Source of the DNA: Planctomycetota bacterium
Lineage (GTDB): Bacteria > Planctomycetota > Planctomycetia > Pirellulales > Pirellulaceae
Reading direction: 5' to 3'
DNA length: 64,000 nucleotides
Assembly (NCBI GenBank): GCA_014381825.1
Contig: JACNKX010000065.1
Location: 62,001 to 126,000 of the forward strand
Part shown: positions 3,007 to 8,675 of the stretch, in pieces
How the letters are laid out: each line of letters starts with the position of its first letter
Position numbering within the stretch: position 1 is the first letter of the stretch
The notes under the pieces: model-generated
What the model saw: only the letters and a program-made list of their open reading frames with translations
The model's database searches: none
Told to the model about the DNA's origin: nothing
Program-made: the position numbers and the translations under genes

Positions 3007-3681
3007 ATGAGTAGCGAAACAGCAACTATCGACGCAGTGAAAGAAGAGGGCTTCGCGCCCTATCGCGCGGTCAGTAAGTCTGCGGTTGTTTCTTTTGTGC
3101 TGGCACTTCTGTCAATTTTTGGATTGTATTCAGCTGTCGTGCTCGTGTTGGCGCTTATGGCGGCGATCCTTGGTGTCATCGGCTATCGCAGCGTGGTTCG
3201 GTATCCAAACGAATTGACGGGAAAGATGCTCGCCATCACGGGATCGATAGTCGGCATTTGCATGTTCGTTGTCGGAGCTGCGAAGCACTCATACGTTTAT
3301 GCGACGGAGGTTCCGGACGGCCACATCCGAATCTCGTTTGCTGATCTCCAACCAGACAAGAACAACCCCCGCATGCCAGTTTCATCGAAAGCGTTGGGAT
3401 TTGACGGTGAGAAGATCTTTGTGAAAGGGTATCTTTATCCGGATGGACAGCAGTACAACATCACTCGATTTGTGCTGGTCCCTGATTTGGGAACTTGCTG
3501 TTTTGGTGGCCAACCCAAGTTGACGGACATGATCGAAGTCACTTTGGAAAAGCCCCTTCAAACAGCCTATTCAATGAAGAAACGTAAGCTGGCTGGCGAA
3601 CTTAAAGTTGACGCGATGTTGAAACCGGTTTCAGGCGTTAACGGCGTCTACTATCAGCTGAAAGCGGATCATCTGCGATGA
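3007..3681 (+). CDS. membrane-anchored DUF3299-type protein
   Basis: The preferred start is the ATG at 3007, preceded by GGGGGA. A TTG at 2920 opens the frame earlier but overlaps the previous gene. The 224-residue product has two hydrophobic segments (about residues 25-55 and 65-90) in a DUF4190-like arrangement. A soluble domain follows with the DUF3299 signature: GYLYPDGQ, then FVLVPDLGTCCFGG with a Cys pair. DUF3299 proteins are exported bacterial proteins of unknown biochemistry. The next gene encodes a second DUF3299 protein and overlaps this one by 4 bp, so the two are likely coupled in translation and may work together with the ABC permease. Confidence 0.75.
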   Translation: MSSETATIDAVKEEGFAPYRAVSKSAVVSFVLALLSIFGLYSAVVLVLALMAAILGVIGYRSVVRYPNELTGKMLAITGSIVGICMFVVGAAKHSYVYATEVPDGHIRISFADLQPDKNNPRMPVSSKALGFDGEKIFVKGYLYPDGQQYNITRFVLVPDLGTCCFGGQPKLTDMIEVTLEKPLQTAYSMKKRKLAGELKVDAMLKPVSGVNGVYYQLKADHLR

Positions 3682-4142
3682 ATCACGATCAGGCAAAGAC
3701 GATTGCCTCTCTAGCCACACTTTTGCTTCTCTGTTGTGTAGGCGGTGTTTGCGCGGCCGATGATGAAGCAAAGACGAAGAATCTCACGTTCGACGATATC
3801 AAGTTCGACATCAAGAAGGACGCTCCTTTCAAGCGTTCGATGCTGACCGACAAGATCGAGAAGCTCGCCGAAAGTCGGGTGAAGATTCGCGGGTATATCT
3901 TGCCGAGTTTTCAGCAAAAGGGCATCAAGCAGTTCGTTCTAGTTCGCGACAACATGGAGTGTTGCTTCGGCCCTGGAGCTGCATTGTACGACTGCATTTT
4001 GGTGGAAATGGCGCCCGGCAAATCTGCCTCCTTCACCGTTCGACCGGTCTCGGTTGAAGGCAAGTTCGAGATCAGCGAATTCAAAGGCCCCGACGGCAAG
4101 CACTTGGCTATCTATCGAATGGTTGGCAAAGAGGTTAAGTAG
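3678..4142 (+). CDS. secreted DUF3299 protein
   Basis: This 154-residue protein starts with an ATG overlapping the previous stop (ATGA). A signal peptide (about residues 1-26, ending near CAADD) precedes a DUF3299 domain: IRGYILPSF, then FVLVRDNMECCFGPGA, the same Cys pair as in the preceding protein, and a C-terminus GKHLAIYRMVGKEVK. It is probably periplasmic or surface-exposed and belongs to the ABC permease operon. The last 16 codons and about 90 bp downstream are copied again at 6161-6300, and the last codons once more at 8579-8615, so the 3' end of this gene is the seed of a local duplication. Confidence 0.8.
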   Translation: MNHDQAKTIASLATLLLLCCVGGVCAADDEAKTKNLTFDDIKFDIKKDAPFKRSMLTDKIEKLAESRVKIRGYILPSFQQKGIKQFVLVRDNMECCFGPGAALYDCILVEMAPGKSASFTVRPVSVEGKFEISEFKGPDGKHLAIYRMVGKEVK

Positions 4143-4230
4143 CGCCCCTTCACTTGGCTACGTTGGTTCTTTCGTCTCGCCTCTGGCAGCGTTCGATAAT
4201 TCTTGACGAAATGCTTGACAGCGAGGGGGC
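4091..4230 (+). repeat. direct repeat, copy A (DUF3299 3' end plus downstream)
   Basis: These 140 bp match 6161-6300 without gaps, with about 11 mismatches by eye. The copy covers the last 16 codons, the stop and about 88 bp of non-coding DNA including TTGACA at 4215-4220. A 27-bp core at 4109-4135 is identical at 6179-6205 and 8582-8608. Here the sequence is part of an intact gene, so this is presumably the parental copy. Confidence 0.9.
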
Positions 4231-4901
4231 TGTTAAAAACTTGCGGTTGATGCGTGGTCTTTACCATTGAACTTCGTGACGTTTTTGTTCCGTACGGTTT
4301 GGTTTTCATCCCGTTAGGGATGGCAGCGATTAGCCGGTGGTTGAGCGAAGCGACACCACCGGGGGCAAGTTCGAGAGTACCGACCCTGAAAGGGTCGCAG
4401 ATGCTACGCTACAACCCTTTCAGGGTCGGTGGGTTTATTGGATTCGACTCCGGGGGTGCGCTGCGGCGCAGAGACCCCCGGCTAATCGCTGCTATCCCTA
4501 ACGGGATAAAAGTGGTGCAAATGCCAATGTGCTGCAATACTGACGTTTTAACAGCCCAGCTTCCACCTCATGCTTGGGGACCGCAAATTCGAATCACCAC
4601 CGGAATTGAAGAATTCCCGGCAGACGAAGCACCCGACGACACCCAAGAGGAAGAGGGCTTAGGTACGGAGGATGAGTCCGCCCCCATTTGAGGATGAAGG
4701 AAGATTCGTTGTCGTAAGGCCGACACTCGGTTTGTCATTACGCGCGGCATTCGTGTTGTCCGAACTTGCACTTCAGCCTAACGACCGCCCCAATTCTGCG
4801 ATCGACTCCGTGACGGTTCGTGTTGATGCCTTTTGTGTGTTTGGGGACGACCGCTAGCGCCGCTCCGATCCTTAAACTTCATACGCGGAGGTCATTTGAT
4901 C
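4143..4901. other. long non-coding stretch with palindromic element
   Basis: No convincing gene is seen in these 759 bp. The left part is the non-coding half of direct repeat copy A. Positions 4308-4507 form a multi-hairpin element bounded by 30-bp inverted repeats. From about 4580 to 4691 one frame encodes an acidic run (EEFPADEAPDDTQEEEGLGTEDESAPI in two overlapping parts), which may be the remnant of a destroyed gene, but it has no start or ribosome site of its own. The ribosome site GGAG of the next gene is at 4887-4890. Confidence 0.6.
4308..4507. repeat. MITE-like palindromic element, 30-bp terminal inverted repeats
   Basis: The ends 4308-4337 and 4478-4507 are inverted copies with a single mismatch. 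Inside are three further perfect inverted repeats: 4334-4341/4355-4362 (CCGGTGGT), 4379-4394/4415-4430 (ACCGACCCTGAAAGGG) and 4450-4457/4474-4481 (CCGGGGGT). The unit encodes no transposase. It resembles short dispersed palindromic repeats known from planctomycete genomes and may be a non-autonomous mobile element or REP cluster able to fold into a branched hairpin. No obvious target-site duplication is visible. Confidence 0.75.
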
Positions 4902-6134
4902 ATGGGACGCTTGAAAACCTTATGTTGCACAATTGTCATTCTGTTCATTCCCTTGACGACGTTGGCGGAACCTGAAACCACGTCGCCAAGCATCAATCGA
5001 ATTCCGAGTGCCGGGAGCGGTTTGAGCGCGCTTTCGATGGTGGCAACGCCCGCCAGTACCGAATTGCGAGCCGAGTTGGATATCTCGGATCCGCAGTTTC
5101 GCAGTCTGCAAAATCTAAAACAGGCGTACCTTAAACGTTCCATGGGGATTACAAGAAAGGCCGTCTCGCAGCAAGACAACTCAAAGGCGGCGGTGGCAGC
5201 GGCGATCAAAAGCGGACAGCGAAGTGCCTCCCAGCAACTCTCCCAGAGCCTTGCGAACTTATTGCGTCCAGAGCAGCTACGCCGTCTTAGGCAAGTCCAG
5301 TTCCAGTATTTGACGCAATCCCGATTGTTGGAGCCGCTGGCATGGGATTCGGTGATGATGGAACTCGGTCTGGCTCTCGACGAGCAGCTTCAATTCGAGC
5401 AGCGAGTCCTGGCGCGCAGCGAGACGTTGAAGAAGACGATGGTCGAACTGCGGGAGAAGTTGCCGGCGACGCTTGCCGCGCTGGTCACACCCGAACAACG
5501 GCGGAAACTGGATGAGTTGCGCGGTGAGCATGTGCAGGCAACAGAATTTTCGAGTAGCGCAGGGGGGCGCGGCAACATTTCGACGAGAGGAAAGGGACTT
5601 AGTCGCCTTTTGCTCAGAATAGTTCGCGATCCGAGAATTCAAAAGGAACTCGAAGTTTTGGACGATCAGCACGCGCAGCTTTCCGCCTTGTATGCCGCCA
5701 ATCGTCGTGCGGAACGTAACATCTTGTCAACGCGTTCCCGTGAACAAGTCGAAGCGACGCCCCGGGGGCTCGGCGAGATCGGTCCACCTGAAGAGGAACT
5801 CGAAGCACTTCGCAAACAATTCGACATGAAAGTGGGCGAGATACTGCTGCCGCATCAGGTGAAACGGCTACGGCAACTTGATTTTCAACTTCGCGTCGCG
5901 CGCGAAGCCGTCATTCCGCTCTTATCAGAGACCGCTGCCACCGCGATTGGGCTGACCGAGGAAAAGCAGCAACAGCTGCAGGATGCCTACGTACGCGAGT
6001 CGGAGATCTTCCTGCAGGAGCGGGACCGCGTCTTCTACGAAGCCCTGGACGAGTTGCTTGCGACGCTGAGCCCAGAACAGCAGAAGCGCTATCATTTGTT
6101 GGTTGGCAAACGCTTCGACAAGCGGTTTCAATAG
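4902..6134 (+). CDS. secreted Spy/CpxP-like coiled protein, paralogue A
   Basis: The ATG at 4902 follows GGAG at 4887-4890 and begins a signal peptide (MGRLKTLCCTIVILFIPLTTLAE). The frame is open further upstream but without a start of equal quality. The mature 390-residue part is almost wholly helical and charged, with recurring units of the type ELRAELDISDPQ, LRPEQLRRLRQ, LTEEKQQQLQ and LSPEQQKRY. These resemble the LTxxQ motifs of Spy/CpxP periplasmic proteins, so an envelope chaperone or sensor role is conceivable, not shown. It is clearly paralogous to the gene at 7311-8537; both end in GKRFDK plus three residues. Direct repeat copy B begins 26 bp after its stop. Confidence 0.7.
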   Translation: MGRLKTLCCTIVILFIPLTTLAEPETTSPSINRIPSAGSGLSALSMVATPASTELRAELDISDPQFRSLQNLKQAYLKRSMGITRKAVSQQDNSKAAVAAAIKSGQRSASQQLSQSLANLLRPEQLRRLRQVQFQYLTQSRLLEPLAWDSVMMELGLALDEQLQFEQRVLARSETLKKTMVELREKLPATLAALVTPEQRRKLDELRGEHVQATEFSSSAGGRGNISTRGKGLSRLLLRIVRDPRIQKELEVLDDQHAQLSALYAANRRAERNILSTRSREQVEATPRGLGEIGPPEEELEALRKQFDMKVGEILLPHQVKRLRQLDFQLRVAREAVIPLLSETAATAIGLTEEKQQQLQDAYVRESEIFLQERDRVFYEALDELLATLSPEQQKRYHLLVGKRFDKRFQ

Positions 6135-6160
6135 TTTGGCACAGGCGGAACGACTCCTTC

Positions 6161-6300
6161 CGATGGCAAACGCTTGGGTATCTATCGAATGGTTGGCAAA
6201 GAGGTTAAGTAGCGCCCCTTCACTTGGCTATATTGGTTCTTTCGCCTCGCCTCTGGGACCGTTCGATAATTCTTGACGAAATGCTTGACAGCGAAGGGGG
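6161..6300 (+). repeat. direct repeat, copy B (remnant of DUF3299 3' end)
   Basis: This is a gap-free copy of 4091-4230 at about 92 percent identity by eye. It encodes DGKRLGIYRMVGKEVK followed by a stop at 6210-6212, but no gene body precedes it, so it is a 3' remnant of the DUF3299 gene. The downstream half supplies the TTGACA of the promoter at 6285-6316. It ends inside a G run that is 5 bp long in copy A and 12 bp here. Confidence 0.9.
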
Positions 6301-6316
6301 GGGGGGGATCTATACT
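6285..6316 (+). promoter_or_regulatory. sigma70-type promoter with 12-G tract in its spacer
   Basis: A perfect -35 box TTGACA (6285-6290) and a TATACT -10 box (6311-6316) are separated by 20 bp: GCGAA, twelve G (6296-6307) and ATC. The usual spacer is 16-18 bp; nine G would give 17. Homopolymer tracts between -35 and -10 are a known phase-variation design, for example meningococcal porA. The predicted transcript would start near 6323, about 50 nt before the ATG at 6373. Confidence 0.6.
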
Positions 6317-6372
6317 GCTTGGCGTTGGTGGTAGATTCTTTTCTTTCGTGGCAGAAGCCAAGGAGCAGTCTC

Positions 6373-7104
6373 ATGTCGTCTTCGATAGTGCGCTGTAAAT
6401 CAGTTGTCCTCACCCTCTCATTGATCATTGTTTGTACTATTTCAGCTCGCGGCCAAGAAGAACCAAATTATCCAATCGTGCTGAGCGTGACCGGCGATCC
6501 TGAAGATTCAAATAATCCACAGGTAGCTGTCACACAAGTCGACTATCTTGTGAGGGAGAAACGAACATTCGCAGACTGGGGTGACAGTGCCGATAACCGC
6601 GACGTGAACGGCGTAGGTAACAGATGGTTGCAATCGGAATACATCGATCGGACGACCGTGCTGCAATCACTCGCTGAATTTACTCAGTATACGGCAACCG
6701 GAACGACTGGCGAGTATTATTGGTCAGATGGTGAAGAAGATCATGCAGCAAATGGAGTGATAACTCGAACAGCAAACAAAGATATTGAAGGTGAGTACGC
6801 CAATGCCGATGACAACTGGATCGTTGGTTCTGTTTCAGCGGCATGGAAGGCGTACGGCGTTATGTATGAAGATGAAACTCAGACCGATGAGACAACAGCT
6901 ATAGAAACTTATGAAAAGTCTTTTGGAAAAGACGTAAATCATGTGGCATTGAAAGAAGGGTACGAGATAACTCGCATTCTACATCCCGAAGGGGTCGAGT
7001 GGATTCGGACAGACTACTTGGATTGGGCACGATTTCACGCTCCCGAACTGGCCCCTAATGCAAAAGTCGAGCGTTACATCGGGACTCGATTGGGAACCGA
7101 ATGA
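6373..7104 (+). CDS. small secreted protein of unknown function, possibly phase-variable
   Basis: The ATG at 6373 is preceded by AGGAG (6361-6365) and starts a signal peptide (MSSSIVRCKSVVLTLSLIIVCTISARG). The mature part, about 215 residues, is rich in Asp, Glu, Thr, Tyr and Trp and matches no family I recognise. Features include VDYLVREKRTFADWGD and GEYYWSDGEEDHAANG. Its promoter contains a 12-G tract, and the locus sits between two paralogous Spy-like genes. The stop at 7102-7104 may be premature: another frame from 7088 continues with a strongly acidic, coding-like sequence. Confidence 0.65.
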   Translation: MSSSIVRCKSVVLTLSLIIVCTISARGQEEPNYPIVLSVTGDPEDSNNPQVAVTQVDYLVREKRTFADWGDSADNRDVNGVGNRWLQSEYIDRTTVLQSLAEFTQYTATGTTGEYYWSDGEEDHAANGVITRTANKDIEGEYANADDNWIVGSVSAAWKAYGVMYEDETQTDETTAIETYEKSFGKDVNHVALKEGYEITRILHPEGVEWIRTDYLDWARFHAPELAPNAKVERYIGTRLGTE

Positions 7105-7300
7105 GGACGTTGACGACGAAAGCGATGAAGAAGGTGACGACGAAGGTGAAGAAACAGTATGAGGTGAATCCACACTCACGATGATAACGACTGGCGCGAG
7201 TACTATCGGTGGCGAATCGCTTGACGTCATTTCGCTCGAACACGGATTTCGCTCGGACACGGCATGGCAAATTGTTCGACGATATCGAAGTAACTTCTGA
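7088..7300 (+). pseudogene. coding-like continuation of the 6373 gene in another frame
   Basis: In the +1 frame relative to the 6373 gene, positions 7088-7159 encode an acidic run (DWEPNEDVDDESDEEGDD and on), stopped by TGA at 7160-7162. The same frame continues open to TGA at 7298-7300 with plausible protein sequence (GGESLDVISLEHGFRSD). This suggests that the 6373 protein was once about 65 residues longer and lost its C-terminus through a frameshift near 7080 and one nonsense codon. Chance open frame is the alternative. No start or ribosome site is seen. Confidence 0.4.
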
Positions 7301-7310
7301 GAGGTGAAAT

Positions 7311-8537
7311 ATGAACCCCAGCGTGGCTAGATGGTTTCAATGTGCGGTGTTGAATGCCTGCTTTCTCAGCTGCTCCGTTGCTCATGCGCGCGGCCCGGCG
7401 AGCATTCACAACATTCCGGATCGCGGCAACGGACACAGTTTGGTTGCGTTAGTATTAACGCCGCAGAATGAGGCTTTGCGTGAAGAGTTGCAGATTTCCG
7501 ATCGGCAGCTACAGGAGTTGAAAGACTTGCGACGCGCGCATTCACAATGGGTCAGTGCGATTCTCCAACAATGGGGCAACCAACAAAAACCACAGCCCAA
7601 CGCCGAATTCGAAACGGAAAAACACCTACGGCAAGCTCATAAAGACTTTCTCGTTGGGCTAAAGCGAATCGTAACGCCTGAGCAATTCACTCGCCTGCGA
7701 CAAATCGGACTGCAACATAAAACGAAGTTCTATTCGCTTGCTCCGCTGGGATGGGCATCCATTCTGGACGAGTTGGGGCTAAACGATGAAGAAAAAGTTT
7801 CGTTTTCGGCCGACGTTAAGCGTCGAAGCGACGACCTCAAAGTAGAGACAATCAAGCTCCGCGCCGAGATTCCGGATACGCTGAATCGTTTCGTTACGGA
7901 CAAGCAGAAGCAACTGCTCAACGACCTGCTCGGCGAACCGTTTCAAGGGATCGAGTATTGGCCTTCTGATACCGCGACCGCAGGGATTTACAGAGGACAA
8001 GGCATGAGCCCGCTTCTTAAAATTGTGCGCAAGTCCGACGTTAAGAAGGAACTTGAAGTCTTGGACGAGCAAGACCGTGAACTCGCCGCTTTGTCACGTG
8101 AAAACAGACGCCTTGAACGTGAACTTCTTTCGAAACACCGTCGAGATCGATCAAATGCCGCAAAGTTAGGTCTTCCCGCAGTCGCTCCACCTGACGACTT
8201 GCTCGAGAAGCTACGCAATGAAATCGACGAGCGGTTGTGGAAGATTCTCGTTCCACCACAAGTAAAACGCCTGCAACAGCTCTTGTTCCAGTCACGAGTG
8301 GGAGGCGAATCAACTGTGCCGTTGCTGTCAAAGTCTGTGGCATCCGCGATCGGGTTGACGTCAGAACAACATGAAACACTCCGCAATGAATACCGTGATG
8401 TAGTGCAACGGGTCAATGAGCAAATGGATCGCGATTACTACACCGCCTTCGACAAAGTCATGGGATCTCTGACCAGTGAGCAACAGAAGCGATATCGCGA
8501 GCTTGTTGGCAAGCGATTCGACAAATGGATGCAATGA
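7311..8537 (+). CDS. secreted Spy/CpxP-like coiled protein, paralogue B
   Basis: This 408-residue protein starts at an ATG preceded by GAGAGGTG and has a signal peptide (about residues 1-26). It is homologous to the 4902-6134 product along its whole length: SLVALVLTPQNEALREELQ matches LSMVATPASTELRAELD, the central LLKIVR--KKELEVLDEQ block is shared, and the C-terminus SEQQKRYRELVGKRFDKWMQ corresponds. It is helical and charged throughout, with recurring LTxxQ-like units. It is likely a periplasmic or surface protein of unknown role. The two copies have diverged well, so the duplication is not recent, in contrast to the nearly identical repeat segments that follow each of them. Confidence 0.7.
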   Translation: MNPSVARWFQCAVLNACFLSCSVAHARGPASIHNIPDRGNGHSLVALVLTPQNEALREELQISDRQLQELKDLRRAHSQWVSAILQQWGNQQKPQPNAEFETEKHLRQAHKDFLVGLKRIVTPEQFTRLRQIGLQHKTKFYSLAPLGWASILDELGLNDEEKVSFSADVKRRSDDLKVETIKLRAEIPDTLNRFVTDKQKQLLNDLLGEPFQGIEYWPSDTATAGIYRGQGMSPLLKIVRKSDVKKELEVLDEQDRELAALSRENRRLERELLSKHRRDRSNAAKLGLPAVAPPDDLLEKLRNEIDERLWKILVPPQVKRLQQLLFQSRVGGESTVPLLSKSVASAIGLTSEQHETLRNEYRDVVQRVNEQMDRDYYTAFDKVMGSLTSEQQKRYRELVGKRFDKWMQ

Positions 8538-8578
8538 CTTGAATTTGCGATCAAATTGTCTATTCGGTCGAATTCCGC

Positions 8579-8615
8579 GGCTATCTATCGAATGGTTGGC
8601 AAAGAGGTAAAATAG
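8579..8615 (+). repeat. direct repeat, copy C (short DUF3299 3' remnant)
   Basis: These 37 bp repeat the last codons of the DUF3299 gene (AIYRMVGKEVK and stop). They contain the same 27-bp core (8582-8608) as copies A and B. The segment lies 41 bp after the stop of paralogue B, mirroring copy B after paralogue A. Homology does not extend convincingly downstream. Confidence 0.85.
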
Positions 8616-8675
8616 CCTCTCCCACACGGACCATCATTCGTTCTGCCCTCGGAGGCGGCCGCACGCCGCAATGCT

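Follow-up and report, generated by a model that had tools for sequence, protein, structure and literature searches.

Does a run of 12 G between the -35 and -10 elements of a planctomycete promoter act as a length-variable switch for the secreted protein encoded behind it? We asked this of a 64-kb stretch of DNA (the window) from a Pirellulaceae genome (G000), for which the initial annotation had proposed a phase-variable promoter whose tract had expanded from five G in a parental copy. Altogether, our results support the switch and not its proposed origin: a secreted-protein gene is preceded by a sigma-70 promoter with a G-tract in its spacer, the tract's position is kept in a same-genus genome (G001), the design is recurrent and near-identical copies of such promoters vary in tract length, but the expansion from five G did not stand. 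We consider it probable that this is a genuine sigma-70-type promoter with a slippage-prone G-tract spacer that shifts expression of the gene at 6373, and probably of the gene at 7311 as well, and that it exemplifies a design recurring in Planctomycetia ahead of genes for exported proteins.

The promoter (6285-6316; Table 1) reads TTGACA, GCGAA, G12, ATC and TATACT, with a spacer of 20 bp at 6291-6310, and the coordinates first given for these elements, with 12 G at 6296-6307, proved exact. The claim that nine G would give a 17-bp spacer also agrees with the arithmetic (G12 gives 20 bp and G9 gives 17 bp), and tract lengths of at least 8 thus straddle the optimum of ~17 bp. This site is the single match to TTGACA-N10-24-TATAMT in the window, for which shuffled sequences predict 0.02, and the 64 kb contain no other run of at least eight G or C. 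Under a first-order model trained on the window's first 14 kb, ~0.3 runs of 12 G are expected by chance in the 9.69-Mb genome. A generic consensus promoter scan missed the G12 promoter because it permits only spacers of 16-18 bp. An alternative -35 element, TTGACG at 6273-6278, is possible, but it would lie 32 bp from TATACT and was not adopted.

Table 1. Features of the G12 promoter and the surrounding two-unit block (window coordinates; G001 and G002 are genomes of the same genus)
Feature	Position	Strand	Remarks
-35 element TTGACA	6285..6290	+	also kept in the promoter of the G001 homologue (AAATGCTTGACA)
G12 tract within the -35/-10 spacer	6296..6307	+	position kept in G001, there G9 with a spacer of 14
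-10 element TATACT	6311..6316	+	TACACT in G001
Ribosome-binding site AAGGAG	6360..6365	+	5' of the ATG at 6373; AAAGGAG in G001
Secreted protein gene, 243 aa	6373..7104	+	N-terminal export signal; 3' end frame-shifted relative to homologues at ~7030-7045
LTXXQ (Spy/CpxP-like) periplasmic-type protein gene, weak match	7311..8537	+	6373-like gene followed by LTXXQ gene also in G001
DUF3299 gene, left edge of the two-unit block	3678..4142	+	in G002 adjoins the 8579 region directly
Truncated promoter copy, unit 1 (TTGACAGCGA-G5)	4200..4229	+	TTGACA 4215-4220, G5 4225-4229
Inverted-repeat element, ends CTGTTAAAA...TTTTAACAG	4230..4554	+	severs the G-tract and takes the place of the unit 1 gene body
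C-terminal remnant, paralogue of the 6373 gene	4557..4691	+	
LTXXQ-family gene, unit 1	4902..6134	+	41% identical to the 7311 gene
Duplicated DUF3299 3' end closing unit 1	6160..6213	+	unit 2 ends with a third copy, at 8579-8616

A sequence heuristic finds an export signal at the N-terminus of the 6373 product, which bears out its earlier designation as a secreted protein. A Pfam search assigned the product to no family, a search of the genome-contig collection returned no relatives, and its single-sequence fold was uninformative (pLDDT 34); its gene family was found in two genomes, its own and one other, among 241 of the family. The LTXXQ gene at 7311 is probably co-transcribed with it, and the order of the two genes matches that in G001. 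The chief caution for the G12 copy concerns the 6373 gene, whose 3' end is frame-shifted compared with its relatives and which may therefore be decaying; the frame change may stem from the gain or loss of one base or from a sequencing error. The acidic C-terminus that is conserved in the relatives sits here in a different frame (FTLPNWPLMQKSSVTSGLDWEPNEDVDDE..., window 7030-7150).

In G001, the corresponding unit runs from a 6373-like gene through an LTXXQ gene and a DUF3299 tail to the 8579 region, and its promoter reads TTGACA-G9-ACCGC-TACACT with a spacer of 14 bp. The leader from the -10 element to the ATG is clearly alignable between the two genomes, the LTXXQ genes are 58% and the DUF3299 genes 79% identical, and the 6373 protein shares 27-30% of its amino acids with its homologue. 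The matching site of the tract in two genes this divergent therefore indicates that tract position has been kept while tract length and protein have diverged. Relative to the 17-bp optimum, the two sequenced states deviate in opposite directions, by +3 bp for G12 and by -3 bp in G001. The named relatives of the DUF3299 gene come from Planctomycetota/Pirellulaceae MAGs, in confirmation of the lineage, and among 80 loci of such relatives we found relatives of the unit only in the G001 record and a tract promoter in none.

The block at 4144-8616 consists of two tandem units. Unit 1 comprises, in order, a truncated promoter, an inverted-repeat element, a remnant of a paralogue, an LTXXQ gene and a copy of the DUF3299 3' end; unit 2 opens with the G12 promoter and continues with the 6373 gene, another LTXXQ-like gene and a further DUF3299 tail. 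The segments 4090-4229 and 6160-6299 are homologous as far as the G-run and no further, because the ~325-bp element starts at 4230. What had been taken for a parental copy at 4221-4230 is thus a tract cut short by this element, beyond which lies a C-terminal remnant of a related gene, and the five G at 4225-4229, severed by a rearrangement, do not record an ancestral tract length; we therefore dropped the proposal that the G12 tract expanded from them. The element has long internal inverted repeats besides its terminal ones, and no second copy of it was present in the DNA searched. In G002 the entire block is missing: the DUF3299 gene abuts the 8579 region, which leaves no promoter at that place.

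Tract-bearing spacers recur well beyond this locus. Across 241 genomes of the family, the pattern TTGACA-N0-8-G8-N0-8-TANNNT had 19 matches in 14 genomes compared with 2 for the same pattern read backwards, which served as the control in all tract-promoter scans, and the C8 version had 15 compared with 1. Across 398 Planctomycetia genomes, the version with at least nine G between TTGACA and TANNNT gave 39 rows from 29 genomes and 24 genera, some of them overlapping matches at one place, and none for the reversed pattern; since the reversed pattern samples mainly coding DNA, intergenic background could account for part of the enrichment. As a positional control, we searched for G8 within 20 bp 3' of a TTGACA-N15-19-TANNNT promoter, and tracts just downstream of promoters were not enriched (8 matches at 6 places, compared with 8 reversed in 4 genomes). 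A few G-matches are likely due to chance, among them the one in G023, which lies inside a coding region, and the sites upstream of nusA in G090 and G104. The idea of a promoter family throughout the window's own genome was dropped, as just the G12 site fits among four loose matches.

Tract lengths among promoters of this type range from 8 to 17, and in many class members the tract abuts the -10 element. A DUF1573 gene in G082 has the promoter TTGACA-TC-G12-TAAGAT; its one informative orthologue, in G083, is tract-free (TTGACA-N17-TAGGTT), supporting TTGACA as the -35 element and 17 bp as the usual spacing. DUF1573 proteins recur behind tract promoters (six over the Pfam cut-off and two under it), as do PEP-CTERM and DUF1559 proteins. 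When both sets were scored with one heuristic, an export signal was assigned to 33 of 47 genes behind tract promoters and to 8 of the 22 genes that follow canonical TTGACA-N17-TATAMT promoters (Fisher p = 0.01). The comparison is approximate, since the tract set was drawn from the class but the controls from the family, with one genome supplying half of the controls.

Tract length also differs among relatives. Besides the difference between species at the focal promoter (G12 in the window, G9 in G001), near-identical copies of other promoters carry G14 and G11 between identical flanks (G248 and G246), G14 and G12 (tandem copies in G287), and C9 and C8 (paralogous promoters in G024/G027); all lengths were read from assemblies, draft or long-read, and some of these differences could be homopolymer errors. 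The G248 and G246 tracts belong to a near-identical surface-protein locus (L108/L119 and L111/L120; 90.9% over 6.8 kb, with an almost identical protein) in genomes assigned to different families, and a recent transfer is possible. In G024/G027 (L126-L130), several C8-C9 spacer promoters with near-identical leaders precede DUF1573 membrane proteins within differing flanks, suggesting a duplicated promoter-gene cassette.

Alternatively, the promoter may be genuine but the tract a mutational by-product in a tolerant stretch, with no switching that is under selection. This neutral explanation, to which we give a minor share of the probability, draws on the tendency of unconstrained homopolymers to grow, on the tolerance of spacers to sequence change, on the tract-free DUF1573 promoter in G083 and on the frameshift in the 6373 gene. 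However, the constrained property of a promoter is precisely its spacer length, so that drift there should be purged, and neutral growth sits poorly with an enrichment that is found in spacers and is absent just downstream, with the bias of downstream genes to exported proteins and with a tract position kept between G000 and G001 at 27-30% protein identity.

Two further explanations were weighed. The G-tract could be a fixed structural element, acting through DNA shape, a bound regulator or a G-quadruplex and without its length serving as a switch, as its contact with the -10 element in many class members might suggest for a binding site; the spread of lengths from 8 to 17, the parallel enrichment of C-tracts and the length differences between near-identical copies make this improbable. 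We regard it as slightly less probable still that the tract length is an artefact of assembly or sequencing. The genome is a draft of 238 contigs, and several of its other long G-runs lie at contig ends or beside N gaps, but the G12 tract sits inside a 157-kb contig with clean flanks, a tract occupies the matching place in G001, an independent MAG, and TTGACA...TANNNT flanks would not be favoured by 39 to 0 through an artefact. Among these other runs, those at L041 (G000 C25:24744-24954), L042, L046 and L052, which reach up to 26 G and adjoin N gaps or contig ends, are probably assembly artefacts.

We favour a switch acting through spacer length and conclude that the G12 promoter is most likely phase-variable in the manner of porA and fetA. 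In our model, replication slippage within a clone would add or remove G residues, the changed G count would move the -35/-10 distance around the optimum of ~17 bp, and expression of the 6373 gene, and probably of the 7311 LTXXQ gene too, would move among high, low and off. The porA, fetA and opc genes of Neisseria operate by this mechanism (PMC5084427, PMC5320596, PMC3447861). The G12 state that was sequenced would then give low expression or none, with nine G as the strong state; G001 as sequenced would be low too, and there twelve G would be the strong state.

The same genome contains G-tracts within genes. Two large surface-type genes (L050, G000 C180:46750-46760; L053, G000 C236:78396-78406) carry G11 early in the coding sequence within a shared pattern, M(S/R)KP...SWESLK.W.L-G11-RRR...LRVESL..R.VLA. 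The frame from the start codon hits a stop at G11, and ten or thirteen G would restore the long frame; as read from their sequences, these tracts look like translational on/off switches. Two other genes, which we take to resemble ECF sigma factors (L048, G000 C140:1975-1985; L049, G000 C180:4114-4124), have G11 at a matching codon near their 3' ends (SPDA-R--H-RA--R-G--IL-GGG), where slippage would swap the C-terminus.

The closest parallels come from Neisseria. At porA, a homopolymer tract lies between the -35 and -10 elements, and its length sets spacer and expression (van der Ende et al. 1995, cited in PMC5084427 and PMC5320596). The window promoter resembles it in having a G-containing homopolymer in the same place ahead of an exported-protein gene; at porA, however, variation and expression have been demonstrated in a pathogen, while here switching in an environmental planctomycete is inferred from sequence. 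A poly-C tract lies between -10 and -35 at fetA (Carson et al. 2000, described in PMC5320596), and opc has a poly-C promoter (Sarkari et al. 1994, cited in PMC3447861). Each of these promoters has one homopolymer tract of 10-14 with a strain-dependent length, and the C-tract promoters of Pirellulaceae match their form, although there is no homology and both phylum and gene families differ. Loci of the pilC type are translational poly-G contingency loci (PMC5320596); comparable G-tracts lie within the reading frames of large surface-protein genes in the window's genome, but such loci switch frame and the window promoter would switch by spacing. The initial annotation had noted that this design was not known to have been described for planctomycetes, and our full-text literature search, which mostly does not extend to subscription journals, agreed, finding no report of phase variation or homopolymer tracts for planctomycetes, Rhodopirellula or DUF1573. 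What appears to be new is not the mechanism, which is known, but its phylum and its recurrence on exported proteins across the class.

Promoter-spacer phase variation is mainly known in host-adapted pathogens. With about even confidence, we speculate that Planctomycetia possess a class-wide phasome, in which G- or C-tracts in the spacers of sigma-70 promoters would switch genes for exported proteins (DUF1573, PEP-CTERM, DUF1559 and secreted proteins specific to single lineages). It would parallel, in environmental bacteria, the contingency loci of pathogens and would operate beside frame switching by G-tracts within giant surface proteins. If the design is indeed recurrent in environmental planctomycetes, it suggests that stochastic surface switching may be useful outside hosts, for instance against phages, against protists or on changing particle surfaces. 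Clonal heterogeneity would then be predicted in culturable Planctomycetia, and DUF1573 and PEP-CTERM proteins would be pointed to as exposed and variable.
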